DNA of 42,715 bases from positions 1-42,715 of the forward strand of contig JAKSPO010000015.1 of the NCBI GenBank assembly GCA_024404675.1. Reading direction: 5' to 3'. The position numbers and the translations under genes were made by a program. Positions 24,464 to 39,209 of the stretch are shown piece after piece. Below the pieces are notes generated by a model that had not been told where the DNA came from, did no database searches, and saw only the letters and a program-made list of their open reading frames with translations. Position 1 is the first letter of the stretch. Every line of letters starts with the position of its first letter. The stretch is from Lachnospiraceae bacterium (GTDB taxonomy: Bacteria; Bacillota; Clostridia; Lachnospirales; Lachnospiraceae).

Positions 24464-25672
24464 TTAATCCGTCTGGTTATTCATACGCCATTCGATACAT
24501 CTTCTCAGGTAATGAATATACTCCTCGCTCTTACACATTCCCTTTCCTTTTACATCGGAAAGCTTTGCCACATCCATACCGTTGCAGGCTGTGGTCTTCA
24601 TAACGATATTCAAAGGCTCAACCTTCGTATCATTTGCTATATAAGTACCGATACCGAAGGCAATCTTCGTTCTGCCCTTGAAGTATCGATAGATTTCCGT
24701 CGCACGCTCGAAATTCAGGCTGTCGCTGAAAAGAAGCGTCTTCTGCTTCGGGTCAATGCCGAGGCTCTGATAATGCGCAATCATCTTATCGCCCCACATA
24801 AACGGGTCTCCGCTGTCATGACGCACGCCGCTAAATAGCGTGGAATAGGTCAGCTGGAAGTCGCGCAGGAAGCAGTCTGTTGTAATCGTATCCGTAAGTG
24901 CGGTTCCGTTCAGGACGCCGTACTCCTTCACCCAGGCATCCAGTGCATACCAGTTGGAGTACGCGGGATTGTGCTTATGATTGCCCTGTCCCACACACAT
25001 AATCCACTCGTGCGCCATCGTTCCGATCGGCACAACATTATGCTTCTTGGCAAGATATACGTTCGAGGTGCCGACAAATGTCGAGCCCTCGTAGCTTCCC
25101 TCCTTCAGCGCAAGAATCGCCATCTCCTCCGCTTCTCCGGAGAAACGTCGGCGCATACCGAACTCGGAGAACGGTCCCATCTCGTAGGTGCCGTTGCGAA
25201 GTCCCTCTAGCTTAGCCGCAAGGCGCTCCCGGAAGCTTGCCATCAGCTCATCATAGTCATAAGCCATACGGAAGTACACCTCATTAACAATCGCAAGGGT
25301 CGGAATCTCATACATCGAGGTGTTAAGCCAGGTTCCCTTGGTCTCGATGGAAAGACCGCACGGAGCATCGTCCGTAATCGTAAAATCCTCATAGCGCGGC
25401 TTCCAAAGTCTCAGAAAGTCAACATAAGAGCCCTTGATCCACTTAATGGAATTCAGATACATAAGCTCGTCTTCCTTAAAGCGAAGGCCACAGTAAAGCT
25501 GAATCTGACGCTTGATCTCTTCAACCATCTCCTTCGTAAAATGCACATCCTCGTTTCTGCACTTAAAGGACCAGGTCGTTTTATACGCACTGAACTGGTG
25601 ATAGATTGCCTGTCCCATCGAAAATTTATACGCATCAGTTTCCAATAAACTGTTGATAATCTGCTGAAGCAT
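24464..25672 (-). CDS. pncB: nicotinate phosphoribosyltransferase
   Basis: 402 aa. Converts nicotinate and PRPP (with ATP) to nicotinate mononucleotide, the first step of the Preiss-Handler NAD salvage route. The N-terminus LLETDAYKFSMGQAIY, the block GTSNVYLAKKHNVVPIGTMAHEW near 175-197 (likely carrying the phosphorylated histidine region) and GVRHDSGDP near 276-284 are typical. A good promoter at 25735-25763 drives it, with AGGAGGG before ATG at slightly long spacing. NAD supply may matter to the TIR/SIR2 operon 5 kb away, but no direct link is shown. Confidence 0.92.
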   Translation of the reverse strand: MLQQIINSLLETDAYKFSMGQAIYHQFSAYKTTWSFKCRNEDVHFTKEMVEEIKRQIQLYCGLRFKEDELMYLNSIKWIKGSYVDFLRLWKPRYEDFTITDDAPCGLSIETKGTWLNTSMYEIPTLAIVNEVYFRMAYDYDELMASFRERLAAKLEGLRNGTYEMGPFSEFGMRRRFSGEAEEMAILALKEGSYEGSTFVGTSNVYLAKKHNVVPIGTMAHEWIMCVGQGNHKHNPAYSNWYALDAWVKEYGVLNGTALTDTITTDCFLRDFQLTYSTLFSGVRHDSGDPFMWGDKMIAHYQSLGIDPKQKTLLFSDSLNFERATEIYRYFKGRTKIAFGIGTYIANDTKVEPLNIVMKTTACNGMDVAKLSDVKGKGMCKSEEYIHYLRRCIEWRMNNQTD

Positions 25673-29800: not shown

Positions 29801-29835
29801 TAAAAAACCGCTTACCCGATAGCAGTAAGCGGTTT
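29801..29835 (-). terminator. terminator of the small-ORF transcription unit
   Basis: AAACCGCTTAC (29805-29815) and GTAAGCGGTTT (29825-29835) are a perfect 11-bp stem with a 9-nt loop, followed on the minus strand by TTTTTTAT. It closes the unit that begins at the promoter 30035-30063. Confidence 0.85.
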
Positions 29836-29934
29836 AAATCCACACCAATCAAGAGTTACCCAAGCTGCTTTCGCAGTCGTGTCCCACCAAAACTTACACA
29901 CATCGAGCATATACCTGTTCCATGCAAAGAACAT
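29812..29934 (-). CDS. alternative overlapping 40-aa Trp-rich ORF
   Basis: A second frame inside the same transcript starts at ATG 29934 and runs MFFAWNRYMLDVCKFWWDTT to an end in the terminator stem. It holds five tryptophans and two cysteines among 40 residues, unusual for a chance frame. Its ribosome-binding site is weak. It may be a leader, a peptide, or nothing. It competes with the better-initiated 42-aa frame. Confidence 0.22.
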   Translation of the reverse strand: MFFAWNRYMLDVCKFWWDTTAKAAWVTLDWCGFKPLTAIG

Positions 29935-29984
29935 TCCATGTAATTCTCATTTTCAAGAAAGTTTATAATGAAAACACTGTTCAT
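29856..29984 (-). CDS. 42-aa small ORF with its own promoter and terminator
   Basis: This is too short for routine ORF calling but well supported by signals. GGGAAGGAG stands 7 nt before ATG 29984, a consensus promoter lies about 50 bp upstream, and a strong terminator follows. The peptide starts MNSVFIINFLENENYMECSL and ends GGTRLRKQLG, with three cysteines. No homology was recognised. It may be a signalling, leader or membrane-active peptide, or the transcript may function as RNA. Confidence 0.45.
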   Translation of the reverse strand: MNSVFIINFLENENYMECSLHGTGICSMCVSFGGTRLRKQLG

Positions 29985-30034
29985 TGAGGGTCTCCTTCCC
30001 GGGCAAATACCCGCTTAATCTGTCATCGTAGTGC

Positions 30035-30063
30035 ATTATAGCATATATTTTTTTATTTGTCAT
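30035..30063 (-). promoter_or_regulatory. consensus promoter of the small transcription unit
   Basis: On the minus strand ATGACA (30058-30063), exactly 17 bp, TATAAT (30035-30040). This is among the best promoters in the window. The predicted RNA runs about 230 nt to the terminator at 29801-29835. Confidence 0.75.
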
Positions 30064-30079
30064 TATACTTGCAGTATAA
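30063..30079. promoter_or_regulatory. palindromic operator candidate abutting the -35
   Basis: TTATACT-tgc-AGTATAA is a perfect 7-bp inverted repeat whose edge touches the -35 hexamer of the promoter at 30035-30063. Its placement is typical of a repressor or activator site. The XRE protein encoded at 29073-29330 is the nearest candidate binder. Confidence 0.5.
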
Positions 30080-30114
30080 CTGCGACGCGGCAAAGTAAGG
30101 CGGGTATCGAGGGC

Positions 30115-30243
30115 TCAAACTTTGAAGCCATCTGACATCCAGCATCTCTGTAGCAATGCATTATCGAAACAATCTTTTTTCTTTATACCAGTCTCAACGT
30201 CAATATAAAGCACATCATGCCGCCAACGAACCAAGCAACTCTG
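30115..30243 (-). pseudogene. possible remnant coding frame after the TIR gene
   Basis: A 42-codon frame with no usable ATG at its head runs to a TGA at 30115-30117. It reads protein-like (RWRHDVLYIDVETGIKKKD, then CFDNALLQRCWMSDGFKV). It could be the tail of a gene lost by deletion, or chance. Evidence is limited to amino-acid texture. Confidence 0.2.
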
Positions 30244-30250
30244 TTAATGG

Positions 30251-32734
30251 TTAATCCTGACTGATCCACATGGCCGGGCGAACGCCATTACAATCGCTGT
30301 TGACAGTACCACCATAGGTCGCGATATATCCCTGATAGTTGACAAGGCAGGCATGTGACTGTTCTGCGCCGGGCGTTCGGAGCCACCACCAGCAGGTACT
30401 ATCCTCTATATCTACGCCATTGGCGGTTGCATGTTTTGTAGGCTTGGTTTGTCTTGCCTTATCAGAAGAAAAATACATATCCGCTTCCGTAACACTAAGC
30501 AAAAACACTTTGTCCTCTGTTGCGTTTCCAGGGCTCACATTGGACCACATATTCCTATCTGCACTGACGTTCGTTATCAGTATTCTTTCCTTCTCCTCTG
30601 TTGAAAAGGCAGCGTTTAAAAACACCCCATTCAACCATGTGCGCAAGCCACATCTCTCCCAGGTCGTCCCTAAACTAGAGGAGTCATATTCCCGGCAATC
30701 TAACGCAAATTTGCTGATAACAAGGACTTTTCCTTCCGCTTTACCAAGTACAATCCACTCAATAGCTTCTTTTCCGTTATGTTCGTTGCTGTCCTGCTCG
30801 TAAACACCCCATAAAATGATGTCTCCAAGGTCAGCACTTTTCAATTTCTCTAGTTTGTACTGTTCGAAAATCCCACTTGCTTTTTGTGCACTATCTTTAT
30901 AACCCTTCAACGCGACAAGACTTTCATATGATTCAATAATATTACCGTCATTGAGCAAAGAAATGGCCGCATTATACTTTTTGTTCGGTATTATTACTGC
31001 CTCAAGAACGATCAAAAATACTATGCAAACTGCAACAATAGATATTCCGATGCCCAATGCTTTCTTGCGCTTTTTTGCTATATTTTCAGCCGCAACATGT
31101 TCCTCTTCAGCTTTCCGGGCGGCTTCCAATCGGTCAGCCTCTTCCTTAGCTGCCGCTTCCAATCGGTTAGCCTCCTCCTTAGCCTTGATCTCGGCAATCC
31201 TTTGCTGGCAGACAGAAATCTTCTCATCCGTGTCCTTCCAGCCGAGAATCGTCTGAAATTCACCAATTGCCTTCTCATAACTCGCGGCTGTATTCTCACT
31301 CATTCTGGTCATCGCCTTGGAATAAACACCATCCTTACGACATATCTCAGACTTGTCACGACACTCTTTCTCAAACATATCCGCAGCCTTGAAGCCTGAA
31401 ACACTCGCAAACAAATTCGCAGCCTTAATATATGACAACTCGGTGGCGGCAAGTTTCATCTCCTCTTGCGCATTCGTATAGATACCCATTAAACGATCAT
31501 TCTCATTGCGCTCATTGATACAGGCTATATATCCCCGCAATTCCGTTTTAAGTGGCTCTTCGCCAAAGCGCAACACTTTTCTATAATGATCGCTGTCATC
31601 AAAAGGCTTAGCACAATTGGCCAATTGATCCCGGTTTTTTACCTCTATCTGAGCCATCAGTTTTCCGAGATACGCTTCTGCATTCTTCGGGTCGATGTCG
31701 AGGACTTTTTCACAGTATGTATCCGCCTCGTCCCATTTTCCATCTTCCAAAAAGATAAAAACTCTCTCAAGGAGTGGCTTTATAGAAGTATTACTCGTAT
31801 TCAAAACGACCGTTTCCTTGACGTCATTCCTTATAACATCTGCAGAAATAATCTTTTTTACACCACGAATCAGATCCTGCATGAAGCCTAGCTTACTCAT
31901 GTCCTGTGCCTGCAAATGTGAGAATTCTTCCGGTAAATCATAGGGGTCCATATCACGATATGCCGGGATAAGCATCTTCTTCGCACCGCTTCTGATGAGC
32001 GCAAGATAACGGCTCCATTCATTTTTTACCCAAACTGAACTGAAATATTCCGGCTTCGTTCCAAGAACAACCATCACTTTTGAAGAATTCAGTGCAGCAA
32101 AAATGTAAGGCTCATATGCTGTGCCAAGCTTGTCCTCCAATGTAATCCGGGAGAAAAACACCTTAAAGCCTTCCAATGTCAACTGATGATACAAGTCTGT
32201 TGCAAGAACACTATCCTGTGTTCTACGCCCATTCGTATCACTTTCCTTATAGCAGATGAATACATCGAACGGTTCTTCTTTTGATGAGATTTCTAGAATA
32301 CCCTTTTGAATACCATCGATTGTCGATGCCTCCTCTTCATAAATCTGCCGCTGAAATCCATCTGCATACTGCAAGGCAGCCTTGTAGTCCTCATCAGCAA
32401 AAACGGAAGTAAACTGAGCACGATTTACAGTAGGAATACGCTTATGCGAAGTCGGGTCCTCTACATATTCGATACCGTAACGGCAGAGAACGAGTGACCA
32501 ATATGCCTCTGCATCCGTATTATCCTCATTCAAAATCTGCTCATAGATACCCATCGCCTTATCGAAATCGTTGTTTCGACGGAAATGGTTGGCTCGATCG
32601 TAAAGATTTGCCCTTTTGTCATCGTCAAGGCGAGGTAATGTTTGTTTTGTTCCACAACTATCACACACACCGACGGAGGAGCCTTGGTCAAACTCTATTG
32701 TACCGCCGCACATTTTACATTTAAAAGTTGCCAT
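30251..32734 (-). CDS. zinc ribbon-TPR-TIR-transmembrane-DUF6273 protein
   Basis: 827 aa. N-terminal zinc ribbon (C6, C9, C24, C27), then a TPR-like helical segment (about 40-85). A TIR domain follows at about 155-297 (FDVFICYKESD, FKVFFSRITLEDK, KVMVVLGTKPEYFSSVWVKN). E208 in AYEPYI sits where catalytically active TIR NADases have their glutamate. More TPR-like helices (about 320-500) and a Glu/Ala/Arg-rich coiled coil (about 505-555) come next. One transmembrane helix (about 560-580) leads to a C-terminal DUF6273-type domain (about 630-825; DIILWGVYEQDSN, WWWLRTPG, GVRPAMWI), which would lie outside the membrane. Start follows AAGGAG and overlaps the SIR2 stop by 14 bp. Likely a membrane-anchored sensor or effector. 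Defence function is an inference. Confidence 0.85.
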   Translation of the reverse strand: MATFKCKMCGGTIEFDQGSSVGVCDSCGTKQTLPRLDDDKRANLYDRANHFRRNNDFDKAMGIYEQILNEDNTDAEAYWSLVLCRYGIEYVEDPTSHKRIPTVNRAQFTSVFADEDYKAALQYADGFQRQIYEEEASTIDGIQKGILEISSKEEPFDVFICYKESDTNGRRTQDSVLATDLYHQLTLEGFKVFFSRITLEDKLGTAYEPYIFAALNSSKVMVVLGTKPEYFSSVWVKNEWSRYLALIRSGAKKMLIPAYRDMDPYDLPEEFSHLQAQDMSKLGFMQDLIRGVKKIISADVIRNDVKETVVLNTSNTSIKPLLERVFIFLEDGKWDEADTYCEKVLDIDPKNAEAYLGKLMAQIEVKNRDQLANCAKPFDDSDHYRKVLRFGEEPLKTELRGYIACINERNENDRLMGIYTNAQEEMKLAATELSYIKAANLFASVSGFKAADMFEKECRDKSEICRKDGVYSKAMTRMSENTAASYEKAIGEFQTILGWKDTDEKISVCQQRIAEIKAKEEANRLEAAAKEEADRLEAARKAEEEHVAAENIAKKRKKALGIGISIVAVCIVFLIVLEAVIIPNKKYNAAISLLNDGNIIESYESLVALKGYKDSAQKASGIFEQYKLEKLKSADLGDIILWGVYEQDSNEHNGKEAIEWIVLGKAEGKVLVISKFALDCREYDSSSLGTTWERCGLRTWLNGVFLNAAFSTEEKERILITNVSADRNMWSNVSPGNATEDKVFLLSVTEADMYFSSDKARQTKPTKHATANGVDIEDSTCWWWLRTPGAEQSHACLVNYQGYIATYGGTVNSDCNGVRPAMWISQD

Positions 32735-33707
32735 CAGTCATTCTCCTTTTACAATACTCAAAAACCGCTCTATAATACTTCATATAATCCAAACTCGGAT
32801 TATTACTTTCATCAAATTCCACAAAAGGGCACTCCACTCCGTAACTATCAAGCATCAACTTCATAGCCTCCTCTATGTATGGTTGGAAAAAAAACACCTT
32901 GGAATCCGGATTGATTCTCTTTTTCAAGCTTATCAACCACCATATATCACTTTCAGCAAAATCCAGCGCAAACCCAACAATATACACATTTCCAATCAAA
33001 AAATAGTCTATCCAAGACATCGGATAAAAGGGAGTCCGATTAGCTTTTGCATAATGTATCCCTCGGTTGGCTCGACTTGCTCTTTGATCTATCTCTCCCA
33101 CCAATTTTCCATACGAAAGGTGTCCCATAACTAAAGAATTTTTCCTTAGCGCAGTTCCATGGATATGCCATAACGAAGGCTTATTCCCATATGGAAGTTC
33201 GGTATACTGGTAGATTCCTAATCTCTTCTGTTGTTCTGACTGTTTTGCTGTAGTTCGATATTGTGAGTATATCCTTTGAACAGCACAATTCCCCATCACG
33301 CTTTTCTCAAATTCCAGACTGTAATTTGTCGATAATATCGCATCAAAATTCAAATCTAAAGCAGCTTGAATCAGCATTCTTTGCTCATTGTCAACCGAAC
33401 CGTCCCTCAGTTTTTGGGCAAATTCTTGAAGTTCAATATCAAGATTATTATTCGAGGCCGAAACAATCTCCATTGGAAAAGGCAATCTCCATAGCGGATG
33501 CGAATGAATACTATCCAGTCTCCTCGGTAGATTGGAATGATGATATTTTCTCCAGATTTTTCTGATAATATCATCTGTTTTTACAGCCCCATCAAAGGGC
33601 AGATTAATACCATTTCCAACAAGAAATACATTCACCGGTTGCTCAGGTTGCCCCGTTTCGCCGATTTGAATCTCCGGCAAACAATCATACACTCTTCTTG
33701 TACTCAT
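32721..33707 (-). CDS. SIR2-like protein
   Basis: 328 aa. SIR2-type NAD-binding features: FLVGNGINLPF (GNGIN 31-35), a STNYS motif at 126-130 with the usual asparagine, and LWHIHGTA with H181 and H183 in the catalytic-histidine position. The closing strand VYIVGFALDFAESDIWWL is at about 241-258. This matches the SIR2_2 group found in phage-defence proteins (for example ThsA), where SIR2 destroys NAD. No SLOG or other sensor domain is attached. The gene sits 7 bp after the membrane-protein gene and overlaps the TIR gene by 14 bp. Codons are AT-rich relative to the housekeeping genes. Confidence 0.85.
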   Translation of the reverse strand: MSTRRVYDCLPEIQIGETGQPEQPVNVFLVGNGINLPFDGAVKTDDIIRKIWRKYHHSNLPRRLDSIHSHPLWRLPFPMEIVSASNNNLDIELQEFAQKLRDGSVDNEQRMLIQAALDLNFDAILSTNYSLEFEKSVMGNCAVQRIYSQYRTTAKQSEQQKRLGIYQYTELPYGNKPSLWHIHGTALRKNSLVMGHLSYGKLVGEIDQRASRANRGIHYAKANRTPFYPMSWIDYFLIGNVYIVGFALDFAESDIWWLISLKKRINPDSKVFFFQPYIEEAMKLMLDSYGVECPFVEFDESNNPSLDYMKYYRAVFEYCKRRMTDGNF

Positions 33708-33714
33708 TGCGTTC

Positions 33715-34410
33715 CTACTTACTTACCTTGCATACTCTGTTTCGTTCAGCAAGCAACCCTTTCATCTTTTTACAAAAATCACCAATATCCTCAACCTTAC
33801 TTTCCAAGACTGCCTTTTGAATGTTCTTGGCAATTTCCGACATGTTCTGCTCTAAGTCCGCCGATGCTTCACAGGTAACTGGATCACTATATCTAAGTTC
33901 CTCCGCAAGATTTTCCAGTAATCTTTTAGCCGGCTCATCATCACATTGTGTGACACAAGCAGTGATAACGGCATGCATATCTCTCATTGTTGTTATACTC
34001 TTTTTCAAAGTAGCATCTTGTTTAACAATTTCGTCTCGCACGACCTCTACAGTAATGCAACCAATTATAAACACTGCAAGAATAATTATATTCGTAACGA
34101 TAAAAAGCCACTCCGGAACCCTGGCAATCAATGTAGTAATAACCATTCCACAAAGACTAACAGAGATCTGCGCAACAAGATAGAGGACTCCAATCCTTGC
34201 TATCGGAAAACCATAGAATCTGCTTCTCGCATTACTATTATGGAATGATACATGAAAGACATACATTTGAAGCATTATCGCAATAATACCAAAGACATAC
34301 GAACACCAAAATGTAGTATTTTTTGCGAAAGGCACAGCAAATGCAACCACACTAAAAACGATGATCAGGATGACAAGTATGATGGCTCCTCTGACACTAT
34401 TCCTTTTCAC
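33715..34410 (-). CDS. four-helix membrane protein of the SPFH/SIR2/TIR operon
   Basis: 231 aa starting at GTG 34410, chosen because GAGAGGAG lies 9 nt upstream and the SPFH stop is 4 bp away. A GTG 27 bp earlier lacks a site. Four hydrophobic helices (about 8-28, 35-52, 73-95, 101-120) are followed by a cytoplasmic helical tail of about 110 residues, with CDDEPAKRLLENLAEELRY and a final basic stretch. No family recognised. Probably anchors the complex or forms the membrane effector. Confidence 0.7.
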   Translation of the reverse strand: MKRNSVRGAIILVILIIVFSVVAFAVPFAKNTTFWCSYVFGIIAIMLQMYVFHVSFHNSNARSRFYGFPIARIGVLYLVAQISVSLCGMVITTLIARVPEWLFIVTNIIILAVFIIGCITVEVVRDEIVKQDATLKKSITTMRDMHAVITACVTQCDDEPAKRLLENLAEELRYSDPVTCEASADLEQNMSEIAKNIQKAVLESKVEDIGDFCKKMKGLLAERNRVCKVSK

Positions 34411-34414
34411 AATT

Positions 34415-36271
34415 TCATTCTCCTCTCTTAGTTCCACAGTATGTGCAGAAGTTTCCGACTATGCCCTTATGCCCGCAACTGCAATCCCATGTATTTGGGC
34501 CAATCGTTAAAGGTCTGGGGGCTCCGCAATTATTGCAAAAACCGCCTATAATTCCTGTTTGCCCACAATGGCAATTCCAGGACTGATTCTTGTCAAAAGC
34601 CGGCTTCTTTGTTCCACAACAAGTACAAAAATTGCCAACTATGCCTTTGTGTCCACATGTACAATCCCAAGTATCACTTGGCATTCCAATTGGTTCTTCT
34701 TTCCAAGTCTTAACAATATTTGATTGTCCTATAGCACCAAAGTTCCCCATCATCTGTCCTATTTGAGGTGATATAACACTTGCAGCAGCCATTCCCACAC
34801 CGATTCCCATCATATCGCCTACTATCGAGCTGCCTCCACCCGACGATATAGCTGGTCCCATATTGCCAATGCCTTCTGCATAAGCCTTCTGAACTTCAGT
34901 AGTAAGTACATCTTTTTGGTTATACCCTTTGGCAGCCATAATCTCTGCTTCTGTAAGCCCCCTCATGCGCATAGCCTGTGCTTCAGCCTGCGCTTCGATT
35001 ACCTGACGCTCAGCTTCTCTTCTGGCAATCTCTGTTTCCGTGGTCTGCTGCTCAAGCACAACACCACGATGTGCTGCTTCAATAGCGGCTCTACTCTGCT
35101 CCTCTGCAGTCCTGTACATAGCCTCAGACTGCGCTTTCGCCACACGCACAGTTGCCTCAGCCTGCAACATTCTTGTTTGCAGCGTAATAGTATGCAATTC
35201 CCTTATTCTTCTAAAATTGGGATCATCTTCCGGAAGGACAATGTTAGTCACATAGAACTGAGGAATAGTAAGTCCATATTCATCAAAACCGGAAATTAAT
35301 CTTTCTCTCAACCTTTCAGAAATAACATCCAACTTTGAATCAATCTCAAGCAAATCAATCGACTCATTGTTTATGATTGCCGACAGATTAGTTTTAACCA
35401 CATTAGATATCAGCGGTCTGAAGGAATTCTGAATCGATTTACTCAATCCCGGGCCATCCTCCCAGGCAATTCCCTTGGTTGTTCCCACAAGCTTAACAAG
35501 TAGTTTTCTGGAATTACTTACCTGTAGATTCAATTCACCGGACGCACCAATCTGAAGCGGCGTACCCGTAAGGGTATCAATAAACCTAACCTTTTCAGGC
35601 GTCCCCCACTTAATAGCCATTTGCACGGTTTTGTTGATATAGTAGACTTCAGAATGAAATGTCCCTTCAGAATCTGTAGTAAGCAAGTAAGTTTTCTCAA
35701 GAAGCGGCAACTGCTGGGTTTCAAGCGTGTATCTGCCCGGACCAAAAAGATCAAGAGCCTGACCGTCTTTAAAGAAAATTGCCTCTTGACTTTCATGAAC
35801 AATCAACTGCGAGCCGTAATTGAAATCTTCGATAGGATGTTTCCAAATAAGCGTATTATTATCACCTTCATACTTGATAATGCTAGCCAACCCATCCTTC
35901 TTGATTTTTTCAGACATAATTCTTTCCTGCACATCGTTCACATAATCACATACGGGGCATGTATAAGACGATGCATTTTTTGATGCGAATAATCTCACTC
36001 CACATTGACCGCAGGAAATCTCAAAAACAACTTGTTTATCATTAAGAGTGTTTAGCGGAGTAAAGCACACCGGGCAAAGGGCTTCATCCCCTTTGCTCTG
36101 GTCATAAGCAACCACATTTCCACAGTGCGGACATTCTTTCGATGCCATTTTATCTGTTCTGACATCAATGATATAACCACAACTACAGTCAATCTTCTTT
36201 CTTGCAAAGAATCCTGTTTTCGCCTCTGCATACTTCCCGCAATGCGGGCATTCAATTGCAAATCTTGCCAT
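34415..36271 (-). CDS. SPFH-domain protein with N- and C-terminal zinc ribbons
   Basis: 618 aa, start at ATG 36271 after AGGAGG. The first 110 residues carry several CxxC pairs (ECPHCGKY, ECPHCGNV, CGQCGVRL, YTCPVCDY). An SPFH/band-7 domain follows at about 120-340 (SQEAIFFKDGQALDLFGPGRY), then an Ala/Glu-rich coiled coil (about 355-450). A Gly-rich link and three tandem C-terminal zinc ribbons come last, each of the form W-x-C-x-CG-x(9)-C-x2-CG. SPFH proteins assemble into rings or caps at membranes. This architecture resembles YdjI/virion-core-like proteins, not flotillin. First gene of the operon, with a leader of about 190 nt. Confidence 0.85.
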   Translation of the reverse strand: MARFAIECPHCGKYAEAKTGFFARKKIDCSCGYIIDVRTDKMASKECPHCGNVVAYDQSKGDEALCPVCFTPLNTLNDKQVVFEISCGQCGVRLFASKNASSYTCPVCDYVNDVQERIMSEKIKKDGLASIIKYEGDNNTLIWKHPIEDFNYGSQLIVHESQEAIFFKDGQALDLFGPGRYTLETQQLPLLEKTYLLTTDSEGTFHSEVYYINKTVQMAIKWGTPEKVRFIDTLTGTPLQIGASGELNLQVSNSRKLLVKLVGTTKGIAWEDGPGLSKSIQNSFRPLISNVVKTNLSAIINNESIDLLEIDSKLDVISERLRERLISGFDEYGLTIPQFYVTNIVLPEDDPNFRRIRELHTITLQTRMLQAEATVRVAKAQSEAMYRTAEEQSRAAIEAAHRGVVLEQQTTETEIARREAERQVIEAQAEAQAMRMRGLTEAEIMAAKGYNQKDVLTTEVQKAYAEGIGNMGPAISSGGGSSIVGDMMGIGVGMAAASVISPQIGQMMGNFGAIGQSNIVKTWKEEPIGMPSDTWDCTCGHKGIVGNFCTCCGTKKPAFDKNQSWNCHCGQTGIIGGFCNNCGAPRPLTIGPNTWDCSCGHKGIVGNFCTYCGTKRGE

Positions 36272-36471
36272 TTTCTTAGCCTCCTGATAAACCACTGTAT
36301 GTCAGACACATGCTTTAACTCTGTCATTTCCCTTTGAAGAAGCAGCCGAAGTTAAATGTGAAACAAAAATCAACGCCATAATAGACAGCATATCATCCAT
36401 TCGGTAACCTTTTGAACCGCTCTAACTCCGTGCCACACACTTTCGCATGCCTTGGTTTTGTTATAAAAACT

Positions 36472-36500
36472 AGTATACATTACGTATCATATATGTGCAA
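36472..36500 (-). promoter_or_regulatory. promoter of the SPFH/membrane/SIR2/TIR operon
   Basis: On the minus strand TTGCAC (36495-36500), exactly 17 bp, TATACT (36472-36477). The leader to ATG 36271 is about 190 nt and contains a possible 32-codon ORF (starting about 36399) with a weak AAAGG site. No terminator was recognised in the leader. Confidence 0.7.
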
Positions 36501-36562
36501 TGCATTTTGCAATTATAACTACATTGCATAAGTCAGCGCATACTTTCCTTGCTATATGCAAT
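36496..36562. promoter_or_regulatory. four TGCAAT hexamers between divergent operon and RHH gene
   Basis: TGCAAT occurs at 36496-36501 (overlapping the -35 of the SPFH operon), 36508-36513 and 36557-36562, and inverted (ATTGCA) at 36523-36528. The middle two form an inverted pair with a 9-bp gap. Ribbon-helix-helix repressors often bind such short repeated half-sites, and an RHH gene begins at 36594. A clear promoter for that gene was not resolved. 36300-36470 holds nothing else recognised. Confidence 0.5.
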
Positions 36563-36593
36563 AAAATTTTACATTAAAGGAGGTGCTTGCAAA

Positions 36594-36761
36594 ATGCCAT
36601 TTGAGATTAAACCCAACCGTAAAGAAAGCGAGAACAAAACAATTCGTTTTCCTATTGAACTCATCGACCGTGTAAATGAAGCAATAACAGGCAAGGATGT
36701 TTCCTTCTCGAATTTTGTAATCCAGGCAGTCGAATATGCTTTGGAGAACGTAAAAAAATAA
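36594..36761 (+). CDS. ribbon-helix-helix (CopG/Arc-like) DNA-binding protein
   Basis: 55 aa. A strand KTIRFPIELIDRV followed by two helices (NEAITGKDVSFSNFVIQAVE, then YALENVKK) is the ribbon-helix-helix pattern. Start at ATG 36594 after AAAGGAGG. The frame's earlier ATG has no site. Such short proteins act as dimers and repress nearby promoters. Divergent orientation and the TGCAAT cluster suggest it controls the SPFH/SIR2/TIR operon. It is followed by a very strong hairpin. Confidence 0.75.
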   Translation: MPFEIKPNRKESENKTIRFPIELIDRVNEAITGKDVSFSNFVIQAVEYALENVKK

Positions 36762-36775
36762 TCCCGAATATAAAA

Positions 36776-36865
36776 AGAAGCACCTGTCGGTATGATATGT
36801 ACCCCTTTCACTGGTTGTCCAGTAAAAGGGGTACATATCAGTACAAGGCAGATGCTTCTATCTTT
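36776..36865. terminator. long near-perfect hairpin after the RHH gene
   Basis: TGATATGTACCCCTTT (36793-36808) pairs with AAAGGGGTACATATCA (36825-36840). An inner ACTGG/CCAGT extends it past one mismatch, with a 4-nt loop. An outer AGAAGCA (36776-36782) pairs with TGCTTCT (36853-36859). On the plus strand ATCTTTTTAT follows, as in a terminator. The length (over 80 nt) and symmetry also fit a small palindromic mobile element. Confidence 0.65.
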
Positions 36866-36885
36866 TTATATTCTATTTCTTAACA

Positions 36886-37216
36886 TCAGTTATACACACT
36901 CTGCATGATCTCATTCAGCCGCTCCATAGCTCCGTCCCCATAGAAATCGCTTTGCGCGGCGAGCGGAAACAGATTACGCTTCCACATATTTGCAGAAGCC
37001 TCCAGCTCAGCCGGTCCGTCATAGATCTGCAGAAGCTCCTACCGCTTCCCGGAAGTAACGGATAACGATATCCGCAACAATCCTTTGGATAATAGTAATC
37101 CGAAAGCACTGCGGCAATCGTCGCGCACCCGCATAGCGGGTGGTTGATATTTCGTGCGTGCTCATTTCTCTGTTGAGAAACTCGCTTACGCACTCAACTG
37201 GGTCTATCCGACCCAC
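36886..37216 (-). pseudogene. decayed gene fragment of unknown family
   Basis: Protein-like sequence continues across at least two frames. One frame reads IVADIVIRYFREAVG before stopping at 37019. A second, after an in-frame TAG at 37039-37041, reads ELLQIYDGPAELEASANMWK and ends EIMQSVYN at a TGA (36886-36888). The head of the region (about 37120-37216) contains a perfect 7-bp hairpin, CACCCGCataGCGGGTG (37126-37142), of the kind seen at ends of IS200/IS605-type elements. No transposase remains. The original gene is not recognised. Confidence 0.4.
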
Positions 37217-37218
37217 AA

Positions 37219-37255
37219 CAAAAAGGCACTGCCCGCCATGCAGCGGGGCAATGCC
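37219..37255 (-). terminator. terminator of glmS
   Basis: GGCACTGCCCGCC (37225-37237) pairs with GCGGGGCAATGCC (37243-37255) with mismatches at two positions. On the minus strand TTTTTGTTG follows. It stands about 80 bp past the glmS stop. A smaller stem, GTCGG/CCGAC, lies nearer at about 37303-37320. Confidence 0.65.
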
Positions 37256-37334
37256 CTGTTACTTTCCGTATTTCGTAAGCGCATGCCGAAGCGCTACGCA
37301 CTCTGTCGGCTCTTCAACCGACTGCTCCGTTAAG

Positions 37335-39209
37335 CTACTCAACGGTAACACTCTTAGCAAGATTTCTCGGCTTGTCTACATCAAGTCCTTTAGAAACACT
37401 CAGGTAATATCCGAGAAGCTGCAGCTGTACGATTGCAACCACACCGATGAAATGCTCGTCGGTCTTCGGTACATATACAACGAAGTCCGCATTGCTCTCC
37501 ACCTCGTAACGGCCGTAGGTCGTAAGTCCCATCAGGTACGCGCCACGGCTCTTACACTCCATCATATTGCTGAGCGTCTTCTCATAAAGATCGCTCTGCG
37601 TAAGAGAACCGATAACAAGCGTCCCCTCCTCAATCAGAGAAATCGTACCGTGCTTCAGCTCTCCTGCGGCATAAGCCTCGGAGTGAATGTAGCTAATCTC
37701 CTTCATCTTCAGTGAGCCCTCAAGACATACCGCATAATCGATACCGCGACCGATGAAGAAGATGTCCTGTGCACCAGCGTATTTTGCAGCAAACCACTGG
37801 ATCTGCTCATTGTCCGCAAGCGATTCCTCAAGCTTCTCGGGAATAGACAACAGCTCCTCGATGTAGTATTCATATCTGTCAAGTGCTCCGCGCACACGGC
37901 CGAATTCAACCGAAAGCAGGTACGAGCAAATAAGCTGACAGCTGTACGCCTTCGTCGTGGCAACCGAAATTTCGGGACCTGCGATGGTATACATACAGTA
38001 ATCGGCCTCACGTGCGATCGAGCTGCCGACAACATTCACGATTGCAAGCGTCTTGACGCCTCTATCCTTCGCCATACGAAGTGCTGCCAAGGAGTCTGCC
38101 GTCTCACCGGACTGCGAGATGATCACTACCAGTGCGTTCGTATCCAGACGATTCTTTCTGTAACGGAATTCGGAAGCAAGCTCCACTCTTACCGGAATAT
38201 CCGAAAGCTCCTCAAAGACATACTGCGCCTGCACGCCGACATGCCATGCCGAACCGCAGCCAACAATATACAGGGAGGAAAATCCCCGAATCTGCTCCTC
38301 GGTAAGACCGGTCTCGGAAAGATCGATCCGGCAACTGCCGTTCTCTTCACGAATATACTTCCGAAGTGTGTTACCTGCTGCCTTCGGCTGCTCGTGAATC
38401 TCCTTCATCATGAAATGCTCGTAGCCGCCCTTCTCGGCAGCCTCGGCATCCCACTCAATATTGGTAATCGGCTTCTCCACCGTGTCGCCGTCCAGATTAT
38501 AAAAGACAGCTTCTCCGGCAGAAAGCTCTGCCATCTCAAGATTTCCGATGTAATATACCTGTCTTGTATGATTCAGAATTGCGGGAACATCGGATGCAAG
38601 GAATACCTCCTCGGCATTCTTACCGATGATCATCGGCGAATCCTTTCGCGCCACATAAATCTTGCCGGGAATGTCCTTAAACATAACGGCAAGGGCATAC
38701 GAGCCTCTGACACGAACGATTGTCTTAGCGAGTGCATCGATCGGGCCGACCTTGTATTTTCTGTAATAATAATCTACAAGCTTGATAAGCACCTCGGTAT
38801 CGGTCTGCGAATAGAATTCATAACCGTGGCGCTCAAGCTTTCCCTTCAATTCCTGATAATTCTCAATAATACCGTTGTGGACGCCCACTACCTGGGACTC
38901 CACCTTTCCGGTTCCGGAGCCGGCACAGTTGCCGGACACGTGCGGATGTGCATTGGCCTGACTCGGTGCACCATGCGTTGCCCAACGCGTATGACCGATA
39001 CCGCAGGTACCGATTACCGCCTTGCCGTCGTCTGTCTTCTCCTCGAGATTTCTAAGTCTGCCAAGTGTCTTAACAACCTCCGCTGCGTTCTCACCGTCAC
39101 GTACTGCAATGCCGGCAGAATCATAGCCTCTGTATTCAAGCTTGGAAAGGCCCTCTAAAAGAATCGGCGCCGCCTGCTTGTTACCGATGTAACCAACAAT
39201 TCCACACAT
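37335..39209 (-). CDS. glmS: glutamine-fructose-6-phosphate aminotransferase (isomerizing)
   Basis: 624 aa. Makes glucosamine-6-phosphate, the first step of amino-sugar supply for peptidoglycan. The N-terminal glutaminase domain starts MCGIVGYIGNKQAAPI, with the catalytic cysteine at position 2 after start removal. LEYRGYDSAGIAV and HTRWATHGAPS follow. Two SIS sugar-isomerase domains occupy the C-terminal half (VGCGSAWHVGVQAQYV; VVIISQSGETADSLAALR; FIGRGIDYAVCLEGSLKMKE), ending KGLDVDKPRNLAKSVTVE. Start after AAGGAGTTAAT. 17 bp downstream of dapL. No glmS ribozyme fits in that gap. Confidence 0.97.
   Translation of the reverse strand: MCGIVGYIGNKQAAPILLEGLSKLEYRGYDSAGIAVRDGENAAEVVKTLGRLRNLEEKTDDGKAVIGTCGIGHTRWATHGAPSQANAHPHVSGNCAGSGTGKVESQVVGVHNGIIENYQELKGKLERHGYEFYSQTDTEVLIKLVDYYYRKYKVGPIDALAKTIVRVRGSYALAVMFKDIPGKIYVARKDSPMIIGKNAEEVFLASDVPAILNHTRQVYYIGNLEMAELSAGEAVFYNLDGDTVEKPITNIEWDAEAAEKGGYEHFMMKEIHEQPKAAGNTLRKYIREENGSCRIDLSETGLTEEQIRGFSSLYIVGCGSAWHVGVQAQYVFEELSDIPVRVELASEFRYRKNRLDTNALVVIISQSGETADSLAALRMAKDRGVKTLAIVNVVGSSIAREADYCMYTIAGPEISVATTKAYSCQLICSYLLSVEFGRVRGALDRYEYYIEELLSIPEKLEESLADNEQIQWFAAKYAGAQDIFFIGRGIDYAVCLEGSLKMKEISYIHSEAYAAGELKHGTISLIEEGTLVIGSLTQSDLYEKTLSNMMECKSRGAYLMGLTTYGRYEVESNADFVVYVPKTDEHFIGVVAIVQLQLLGYYLSVSKGLDVDKPRNLAKSVTVE

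Follow-up and report, generated by a model that had tools for sequence, protein, structure and literature searches.

What does a TIR-domain protein do in a tightly packed operon with an SPFH protein, a small membrane protein and a SIR2-like protein? The question is raised by four neighbouring genes, here called A (SPFH), B (membrane), C (SIR2-like) and D (TIR), from a Lachnospiraceae bacterium (assembly GCA_024404675.1, contig JAKSPO010000015.1, positions 1 to 42,715, forward strand; this whole 42,715 nt stretch is referred to below as the window). An initial annotation had regarded them as a membrane-assembled defence system acting on nicotinamide adenine dinucleotide (NAD), with the TIR–SIR2 pair as its core. 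Comparison with related loci leaves in place the idea of a membrane-assembled, probably NAD-consuming defence cassette unlike Thoeris; the TIR–SIR2 pair, however, is not its defining feature. The core of the cassette is formed by A, B and D, to which a changeable partner gene is added. Taken as a whole, the locus is rather likely to be a mobile, membrane-anchored TIR immune (abortive infection) cassette with an exchangeable effector, here predicted to be an NADase.

An SPFH, membrane and TIR core with a changeable partner gene

In the class, 37 of 391 genomes have a homologue of B (E ≤ 1e-3), and in the family 23 of 299 do (E ≤ 1e-10); these and the other genome searches score only first-look candidates, and their counts are lower bounds. 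Forty-nine B-hit regions were fetched, leaving out ten weak places of the 40 found besides the window in the class and two of 24 in the family, and genes were assigned by profile at thresholds of 1e-20 for A, C and TIR and 1e-10 for B. A, B and a TIR gene occur together in 24 of the 49 regions, and 23 of these 24 are without C, the exception (L179) being the same contig as L009. Over all searches there are 35 distinct A+B+TIR loci besides the window, including L200 and a viral contig (L207), and a 60-mer comparison revealed no duplicates among them beyond L179/L009.

Co-occurrence was assessed in the family sample (299 genomes from 298 genera), in which D-type TIR proteins were detected at 1e-30 in 21 genomes and B in 23. 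Both are present in 12 genomes, against 1.6 expected (hypergeometric P 3.4e-10), and in 11 of the 12 they lie on one contig within 10 kb. The twelfth genome (G875) has them on two contigs, and its B contig starts inside a D-like gene. Nine genomes have the TIR protein without B, three of them with A beside the TIR gene (L190, L194 and L196). The expectation that these genes would prove to be neighbours in many genomes is thus borne out.

The position of C is different. A four-row C alignment was scanned over the genome contigs and the best 80 of 93 relatives were analysed: ten loci contain A+B+C+TIR, three C+TIR, one A+B+C, one A+C (on a 3-kb contig), and 65 C alone, 29 of these 65 having less than 11 kb of sequence. 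Where C and TIR do occur together they adjoin on the same strand (13 of 13 distinct loci, with –35 to 64 bp between the open frames). Because C is mostly absent from the A+B+TIR loci of the B-hit regions and is common elsewhere, the TIR–SIR2 pairing was rejected as the defining pair.

Proteins A and B

The SPFH assignment of A is sound (Pfam Band_7_1, 5e-36), and the zinc ribbons proposed alongside it are visible as CxxC motifs only, at the N- and C-terminal ends. The A proteins of ten other cassettes are 36–71% identical to that of the window. B was aligned with nine homologues and has no Pfam family above cut-off (IES5 reaches 21.3 bits against the 25 needed); its AlphaFold2 model (pLDDT 80, pTM 0.48) contains four membrane-length helices and a helical bundle, in agreement with the four-helix membrane protein of the initial annotation. 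In 60 of the 63 loci with both genes on one strand, A immediately precedes B, counting split or extended frames in L021, L023 and L211 as adjacent; the exceptions are L151, L177 and L178.

In five loci (L065, L144, L145, L149 and L150) B itself carries a DUF6273 tail above the Pfam cut-off (4e-10 to 1e-16). As this tail is found on B as well as on D, it suggests that B and D may act together. In L065 the TIR protein adjoining C is short (379 aa). An LRR-like (leucine-rich repeat) insert noticed by eye in the B protein of L009 matched no Pfam family and was dropped.

The properties of A and B also give rise to the main rival explanation, namely that the operon is an envelope-stress module, a relative of YdjGHI and the phage-shock protein (PSP) system that guards the membrane, with TIR and SIR2 proteins that tune NAD or serve as scaffold and have no role in immunity. 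The SPFH protein YdjI depends on its membrane partners YdjG/H and connects PspA with the membrane (PMC8581546), and ydj operons couple Band-7 proteins, zinc ribbons and PspA (PMC11237479); the existence of 26 A–B loci without TIR at threshold points in the same direction. Against this, Pfam assigns none of the operon's four proteins to a PspA- or TPM-type family, A is patchy within the genus, and carriage on viral contigs and changing RES, DUF4365 or HEPN-like partners, both described below, are hard to fit with housekeeping repair. An envelope-stress function is for these reasons considered unlikely.

Protein D is a predicted membrane-spanning TIR protein

Pfam identifies a TIR_2 domain, TPRs and DUF6273 in D (E-values in Table 1), and a zinc ribbon and a transmembrane (TM) helix can be read from its sequence; the composite architecture first proposed for D is therefore upheld. 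Residues 1–310 are 51–82% identical to the window protein over 20 homologues, and TIR_2 was found by Pfam in 62 of 64 D members. The glutamate that had been placed at the NADase position, E208, which we take to be equivalent to the SARM1 glutamate, is indeed conserved: besides its invariance in the alignment (Table 1), it is present in all 49 motif-carrying proteins among 59 D-like open reading frames.

The C-terminal tails vary. Among the best 25 of 37 families matched in the 64 members, DUF6273 occurs in 13 and RCC1_2 in six, and LRR_5, WG and Listeria–Bacteroides repeats are each seen once. Membrane helices were counted by hydropathy in 65 D proteins, the window excluded. Exactly one predicted helix follows the TIR domain in 34 of the 65; the N-terminal side of this helix is the more positive in 32 of these 34, and more than 100 residues lie beyond it in 27. 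The helix of the window protein is preceded by KKRKK, which argues for an N-in/C-out orientation, and a single helix with a positive N-terminal side leads to the simple prediction of a cytoplasmic TIR domain and an outer tail. D would then be a membrane receptor-like TIR protein with a variable outer tail. Its TIR profile matches a TLR15/TLR2 TIR structure (7.5e-4; a flax resistance protein follows at 0.53), and the best PADLOC match of D, PDC-S66 (1.1e-4), covers the TIR domain.

Diversification of the DUF6273 end by a diversity-generating retroelement was considered and rejected, there being no template-like copy of the last 650 bases in the genome. One reverse transcriptase gene (a 433 aa frame, L203) lies elsewhere in this genome and is unlinked to D.

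Some loci depart from the canonical D. Second, divergent TIR-like paralogues without the YEPYIFAAL glutamate motif stand beside D in L144 (729–2774), L145 (13850–15769) and L150 (14245–15828), and are possibly regulatory pseudo-enzymes. In L072 (5520–7934), L138, L139 and L140 the protein in the D position has no TIR domain; in L072 it begins like a zinc ribbon and contains RCC1 repeats (4.5e-27), and that of L138 is a DUF6591 protein (2e-95).

Protein C and the other partner genes

C reaches only 18.6 bits with Pfam SIR2_2 (E 0.0021, cut-off 24.5). Its fold is like those of KomC, ThsA and DSR2, and the SIR2 fold extends over residues 22–326 of 328. C is only 22–36% identical, and the GNG, N128 and H183 positions are retained throughout the cassette members (Table 1), in line with the SIR2-like protein first proposed. 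The match of H183 to KomC H146 comes from a second, weak alignment segment (2.9 bits). On these sequence grounds C is probably an NADase. As C alone is also widespread, the SIR2 enzyme looks recruited rather than cassette-specific.

Scans with Pfam, PADLOC and NCBIfam found no SLOG family in C and no other ligand domain. This bears on a second alternative, a Thoeris variant in which D makes a diffusible ADP-ribose-type signal that C binds without SLOG, with A and B as accessories. The missing ligand domain counts against it. Moreover, the A–B pair is a more constant partner of the TIR protein than is C, which is missing from the 23 loci noted above. A Thoeris variant is therefore regarded as quite improbable.

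Apart from the window, C stands beside D in ten distinct A+B+TIR loci, all of which came from searching with C. Elsewhere the place is taken by other genes. L131, which has the most similar A (73%) and comes from a genome of the window's family, yields nothing with the C profile; two TIR genes flank a RES-domain gene (5e-15) there, and a small TM protein is encoded between B and D. The RES family consists of toxins that act as NAD phosphorylases. A DUF4365 gene (7.5e-17) lies between B and D in L134, and L207 encodes a HEPN-like protein (pEK499_p136, 3.7e-5) that at 23.9 bits is just under the cut-off of 26.6. L168 has a DUF2971 gene (2.2e-9) and a protein with a sub-threshold SIR2_2 match, and in L133 an RNase_T–BRCT protein follows B. 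The small proteins of L132, L136, L142, L144, L164, L165, L169 and L172 have no family above cut-off.

Several further observations concern these partners. Possible second SIR2 proteins in L168 (2765–3814) and L208 (11080–12732) have only a TNY-like stretch in common with C (hhalign probabilities 3.5 and 2.9) and were not counted. Beside the A–B–TIR cassette of L137 (7303–11401) are two zinc-ribbon kinase-like proteins, the second of which combines protein kinase (2.8e-32) and C-type lectin (2.5e-12) domains. Beyond chromosomes, C was seen on two viral contigs (23% identity), one Vibrio plasmid and one Salmonella record in the phage collection. In L022 (3158–11166) it adjoins three large proteins that have DUF6273-like regions and lack a TIR, possibly a different partner for this SIR2 family. 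BspA-type LRR surface proteins, called by motif count and in one case (L061) with Pfam, lie beside C in eight C-only loci (L018, L055, L056, L061, L062, L073, L074 and L078). Proteins of this type are common in these bacteria; they may be chance neighbours and are not used as evidence.

Distribution and mobility

A strong match to A (2e-236) is present in one of 22 genomes of the genus, that of the window, and in one of 13 when only genomes at least 90% complete are counted. The other 21 genomes have weak partial matches (18 genomes; best 8e-15, mostly to the C-terminal part) or none (three genomes). This indicates that the genes form an accessory rather than a core set, and excludes the vertically conserved core genes against which the initial annotation had cautioned.

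A scan of viral contigs for A, limited to two peptide patterns, identified three (L207, L208 and L209), all with A–B. On L207 a GH25 lysin, an unassigned reading frame and a resolvase precede A, B, the HEPN-like gene and TIR. On L209 a tail sheath gene, a tail tube gene and one small reading frame are followed by A–B and the start of a D-like gene. L208 carries A–B together with a zinc-ribbon/TPR protein that has no TIR and a protein containing GNG; a ResIII helicase and a resolvase lie nearby. In addition, a 20-kb Butyrivibrio plasmid encodes A, B and a zinc-ribbon protein, with genes for a restriction subunit S and a recombinase close by, and SPFH relatives of A, most of them distant, are found in 20 plasmid records.

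These contigs also bear on a third alternative, a superinfection exclusion or phage–phage conflict module, which would be chiefly prophage cargo protecting the lysogen, with chromosomal copies as remnants. The A–B pair in the tail module of L209 and near the lysin and resolvase of L207 would suit this explanation, as would the A+T-rich island in the window. Set against it are the small number of viral contigs with A (three, by the two-pattern scan), the finding of no phage family in ten proteins scanned around the window copy, and the lack of D-type TIR or A in the annotated phage records searched; it is moreover an ecological statement that is compatible with an immune cassette. As a separate explanation it is judged very unlikely.

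Operon layout, signals and base composition

The coordinates of the four genes and of the features discussed above are collected in Table 1. They agree with the minus-strand arrangement reported at the outset, with gaps of 4 bp between A and B and 7 bp between B and C, and an overlap of 14 bp between C and D. AGGAGG precedes gene A. The hairpin downstream of D is likely to be the end of the operon. The ‘one promoter’ first assigned to the operon is weak: the best match just upstream of A is 9/12 (36499–36472), and the 24 promoter-like sites of the region are close to the number in shuffled sequences (18.0 ± 4.5), but the tight packing of A–D still makes co-transcription likely.

Table 1. Coordinates of the cassette genes, domains, conserved residues and terminator-like hairpin in the window
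Feature	Position	Strand	Remarks
Gene A	34415-36271	-	SPFH (Band 7) protein, 618 aa, proposed platform component
SPFH domain of A (residues 149-349)	35225-35827	-	Pfam match range
Gene B	33715-34410	-	Four-TM protein with helical bundle, 231 aa, GTG start
Gene C	32721-33707	-	SIR2-like probable NADase, 328 aa, without SLOG domain, proposed effector
C residues G31 N32 G33	33609-33617	-	Invariant in 15/15 cassette C proteins
C residue N128 (TNY motif)	33324-33326	-	Invariant 15/15; aligns with TTNY of KomC and ThsA
C residue H183 (HIHG motif), proposed catalytic His	33159-33161	-	Invariant 15/15
Gene D	30251-32734	-	Zinc ribbon-TPR-TIR-TPR-TM-DUF6273, 827 aa, predicted receptor-like TIR protein
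TIR domain of D (about residues 155-281)	31892-32272	-	TIR_2 2.9e-12
D residue E208, putative catalytic glutamate (YEPYIFAAL)	32111-32113	-	Invariant 21/21
Predicted TM helix of D (about residues 559-582)	30989-31060	-	Read from sequence
DUF6273 domain of D (residues 668-825), putative sensor outside the membrane	30260-30733	-	PF19789 1.1e-27
Terminator-like hairpin, T tail	29805-29835	-	Downstream of D; 12-pair stem; consensus match only

The island is richer in A+T than its flanks, as first remarked (G+C 0.423 at 29900–37300 versus 0.505 in the remaining window). In 20 picked other cassettes the effect is weak: 15 are below their flanks in G+C, with a mean difference of only 0.014.

The island lies directly downstream of a gene at 37335–39209 (minus strand) that, from its sequence, we take to be glmS. 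The region downstream of glmS is the classic Tn7 attachment region. At 1e-50 a glmS-like gene was recovered from 20 of the 22 genus genomes, in ten cases with only ~50% identity. Eight glmS regions were fetched, two of them short; none contains the opposite flank of the window copy, so that no clean empty site can be demonstrated. In genome G620 (L188) the stretch after the glmS-like gene is also A+T-rich (G+C 0.415), though the genes assigned there encode an ABC transporter and a regulator. A nicotinate phosphoribosyltransferase gene of NAD salvage (NAPRTase, 8e-67; 24464–25672, minus strand) lies some 5 kb away from the cassette, probably by coincidence.

A proposed mechanism

An accessory gene set that is found on viral contigs and that combines a sensor-like core with changing enzymes, several from NAD- or RNA-directed families, resembles an abortive-infection system, and its recurrence with changing partners and on phage contigs indicates that it is probably an immune system of a type undescribed in the literature searched. 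In the mechanism envisaged, A would oligomerise under the membrane and be held there by the four-helix protein B, a step suggested by the SPFH fold and by the dependence of B. subtilis YdjI on membrane partners. D would be located at this platform, with its zinc ribbon, TPRs and TIR domain in the cytoplasm and DUF6273 outside by way of the single helix. Its outer domain (or the cytoplasmic domain of RCC1 type that other members have) may sense an infection-related trigger, whereupon the clustered TIR domains could use NAD via E208, either as an NADase or as a signal maker. The adjacent effector, here the SIR2 enzyme C, would then be switched on and destroy NAD, so that the infected cell stops before phage release.

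A number of findings weigh against this reading. The 26 A–B loci without TIR, some of which end with the contig and others of which carry zinc-ribbon proteins, suggest that A–B may be a general envelope module. At the thresholds applied, neither A, B nor TIR is seen in 65 of the 80 C loci, so that C is not specific to the cassette. Some cassette neighbours are ordinary genes (LGT, NlpC/P60, Met-tRNA synthetase), and adjacency by itself is thus no proof of an effector. The only solved TIR structure matched by D at E ≤ 0.01 is that of a Toll-like receptor and not of an NADase. The predicted topology of D is derived from hydropathy and charge alone, and of the 65 D proteins 19 lack a helix beyond the TIR domain and 12 have at least two. 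The annotated phage records searched contain neither D-type TIR nor A, and the plasmid records searched contain no D-type TIR. Finally, PADLOC applied to 64 flank genes (picked from 238 eligible) matched 77 families, the best 25 of which each occur in one member (methyltransferase, PD-T4-6, PDC-S01 and DruM among them); among 48 control genes 11 families were matched, none in more than one member, and given the overlapping models the flank set is not clearly richer.

Two points go beyond the initial annotation, namely that D is predicted to span the membrane with interchangeable tails and that A–B occurs on viral contigs. A bolder reading, offered tentatively, is that Toll-like receptors may have a bacterial counterpart in this cassette: TIR proteins that cross the membrane and carry exchangeable outer domains (DUF6273, LRR_5, Listeria–Bacteroides repeats and others, with B able to carry the same outer domain) would sit on an SPFH/four-TM platform, relay detection at the surface to modular cytoplasmic killers (SIR2, RES, DUF4365, HEPN-like), and be spread in Clostridia by phages and mobile elements. 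To our knowledge, the bacterial TIR defence proteins known so far are cytoplasmic sensors or enzymes. A membrane-crossing TIR protein with a swappable outer domain, if confirmed, would move infection sensing to the cell surface, provide a prokaryotic parallel to the Toll-like receptor layout and lend a role to the uncharacterised DUF6273 domain. The exchangeable partners also raise the question of whether the RES, DUF4365 and HEPN-like genes are stand-ins for the SIR2 NADase.

Comparison with known systems

No description of the A–B–C–D combination was found in the literature searched, which lacked most subscription papers, nor is the cassette described in the available parts of PMC7159879, PMC11237479, PMC8581546 and PMC13142454. 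None of the four proteins exceeds an NCBIfam cut-off, and PADLOC, used without cut-offs, gives weak matches at best (PDC-S66, as above, and ThsB at 0.0015).

One close comparison is with Thoeris, which likewise sets a TIR protein beside a putative effector. The architecture is nevertheless unlike Thoeris, as had been recognised: the Thoeris effector is a SIR2–SLOG protein (ThsA) or another ThsA type gated by a ligand and C is SIR2 without SLOG, D carries a zinc ribbon, TPRs, a TM helix and a tail domain, and the partners here are SPFH and four-TM proteins with a replaceable SIR2. Membership in Thoeris was rejected because of the missing SLOG and because D scores only 30.7 bits with ThcB4 against an NCBIfam cut-off of 220. 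KomC of Kongming is a SIR2-only NADase, and differs in that the other operon genes here are SPFH, membrane and TIR genes (KomA and KomB were not specifically searched for).

As described in PMC11237479 and PMC8581546, the B. subtilis YdjI/pspA-ydjGHI system shares with the cassette an SPFH protein without its own TM segment, membrane partners and zinc ribbons in the operon, whereas the window operon has no PspA or TPM (YdjH) family and has TIR and NADase-like proteins instead.

The likeness to animal Toll-like receptors is one of analogy only. D shares with them a predicted layout of cytoplasmic TIR, one membrane helix and variable outer domain (LRR_5 in one member), and its TIR profile matches one of theirs; in D, however, the domain order is reversed, with the TIR on the N-terminal side, and the enzyme-type glutamate is kept. 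There is no evidence of common descent of the whole architecture. With the defence-type SIR2 NADases C shares the SIR2 fold and the conserved active-site asparagine (N128) and histidine (H183), and with the TIR NADases D shares the conserved putative catalytic glutamate. The cassette is best viewed as a variant of TIR/SIR2 NAD-consuming defence; should the predicted outer-sensor topology hold, it would merit a class of its own.

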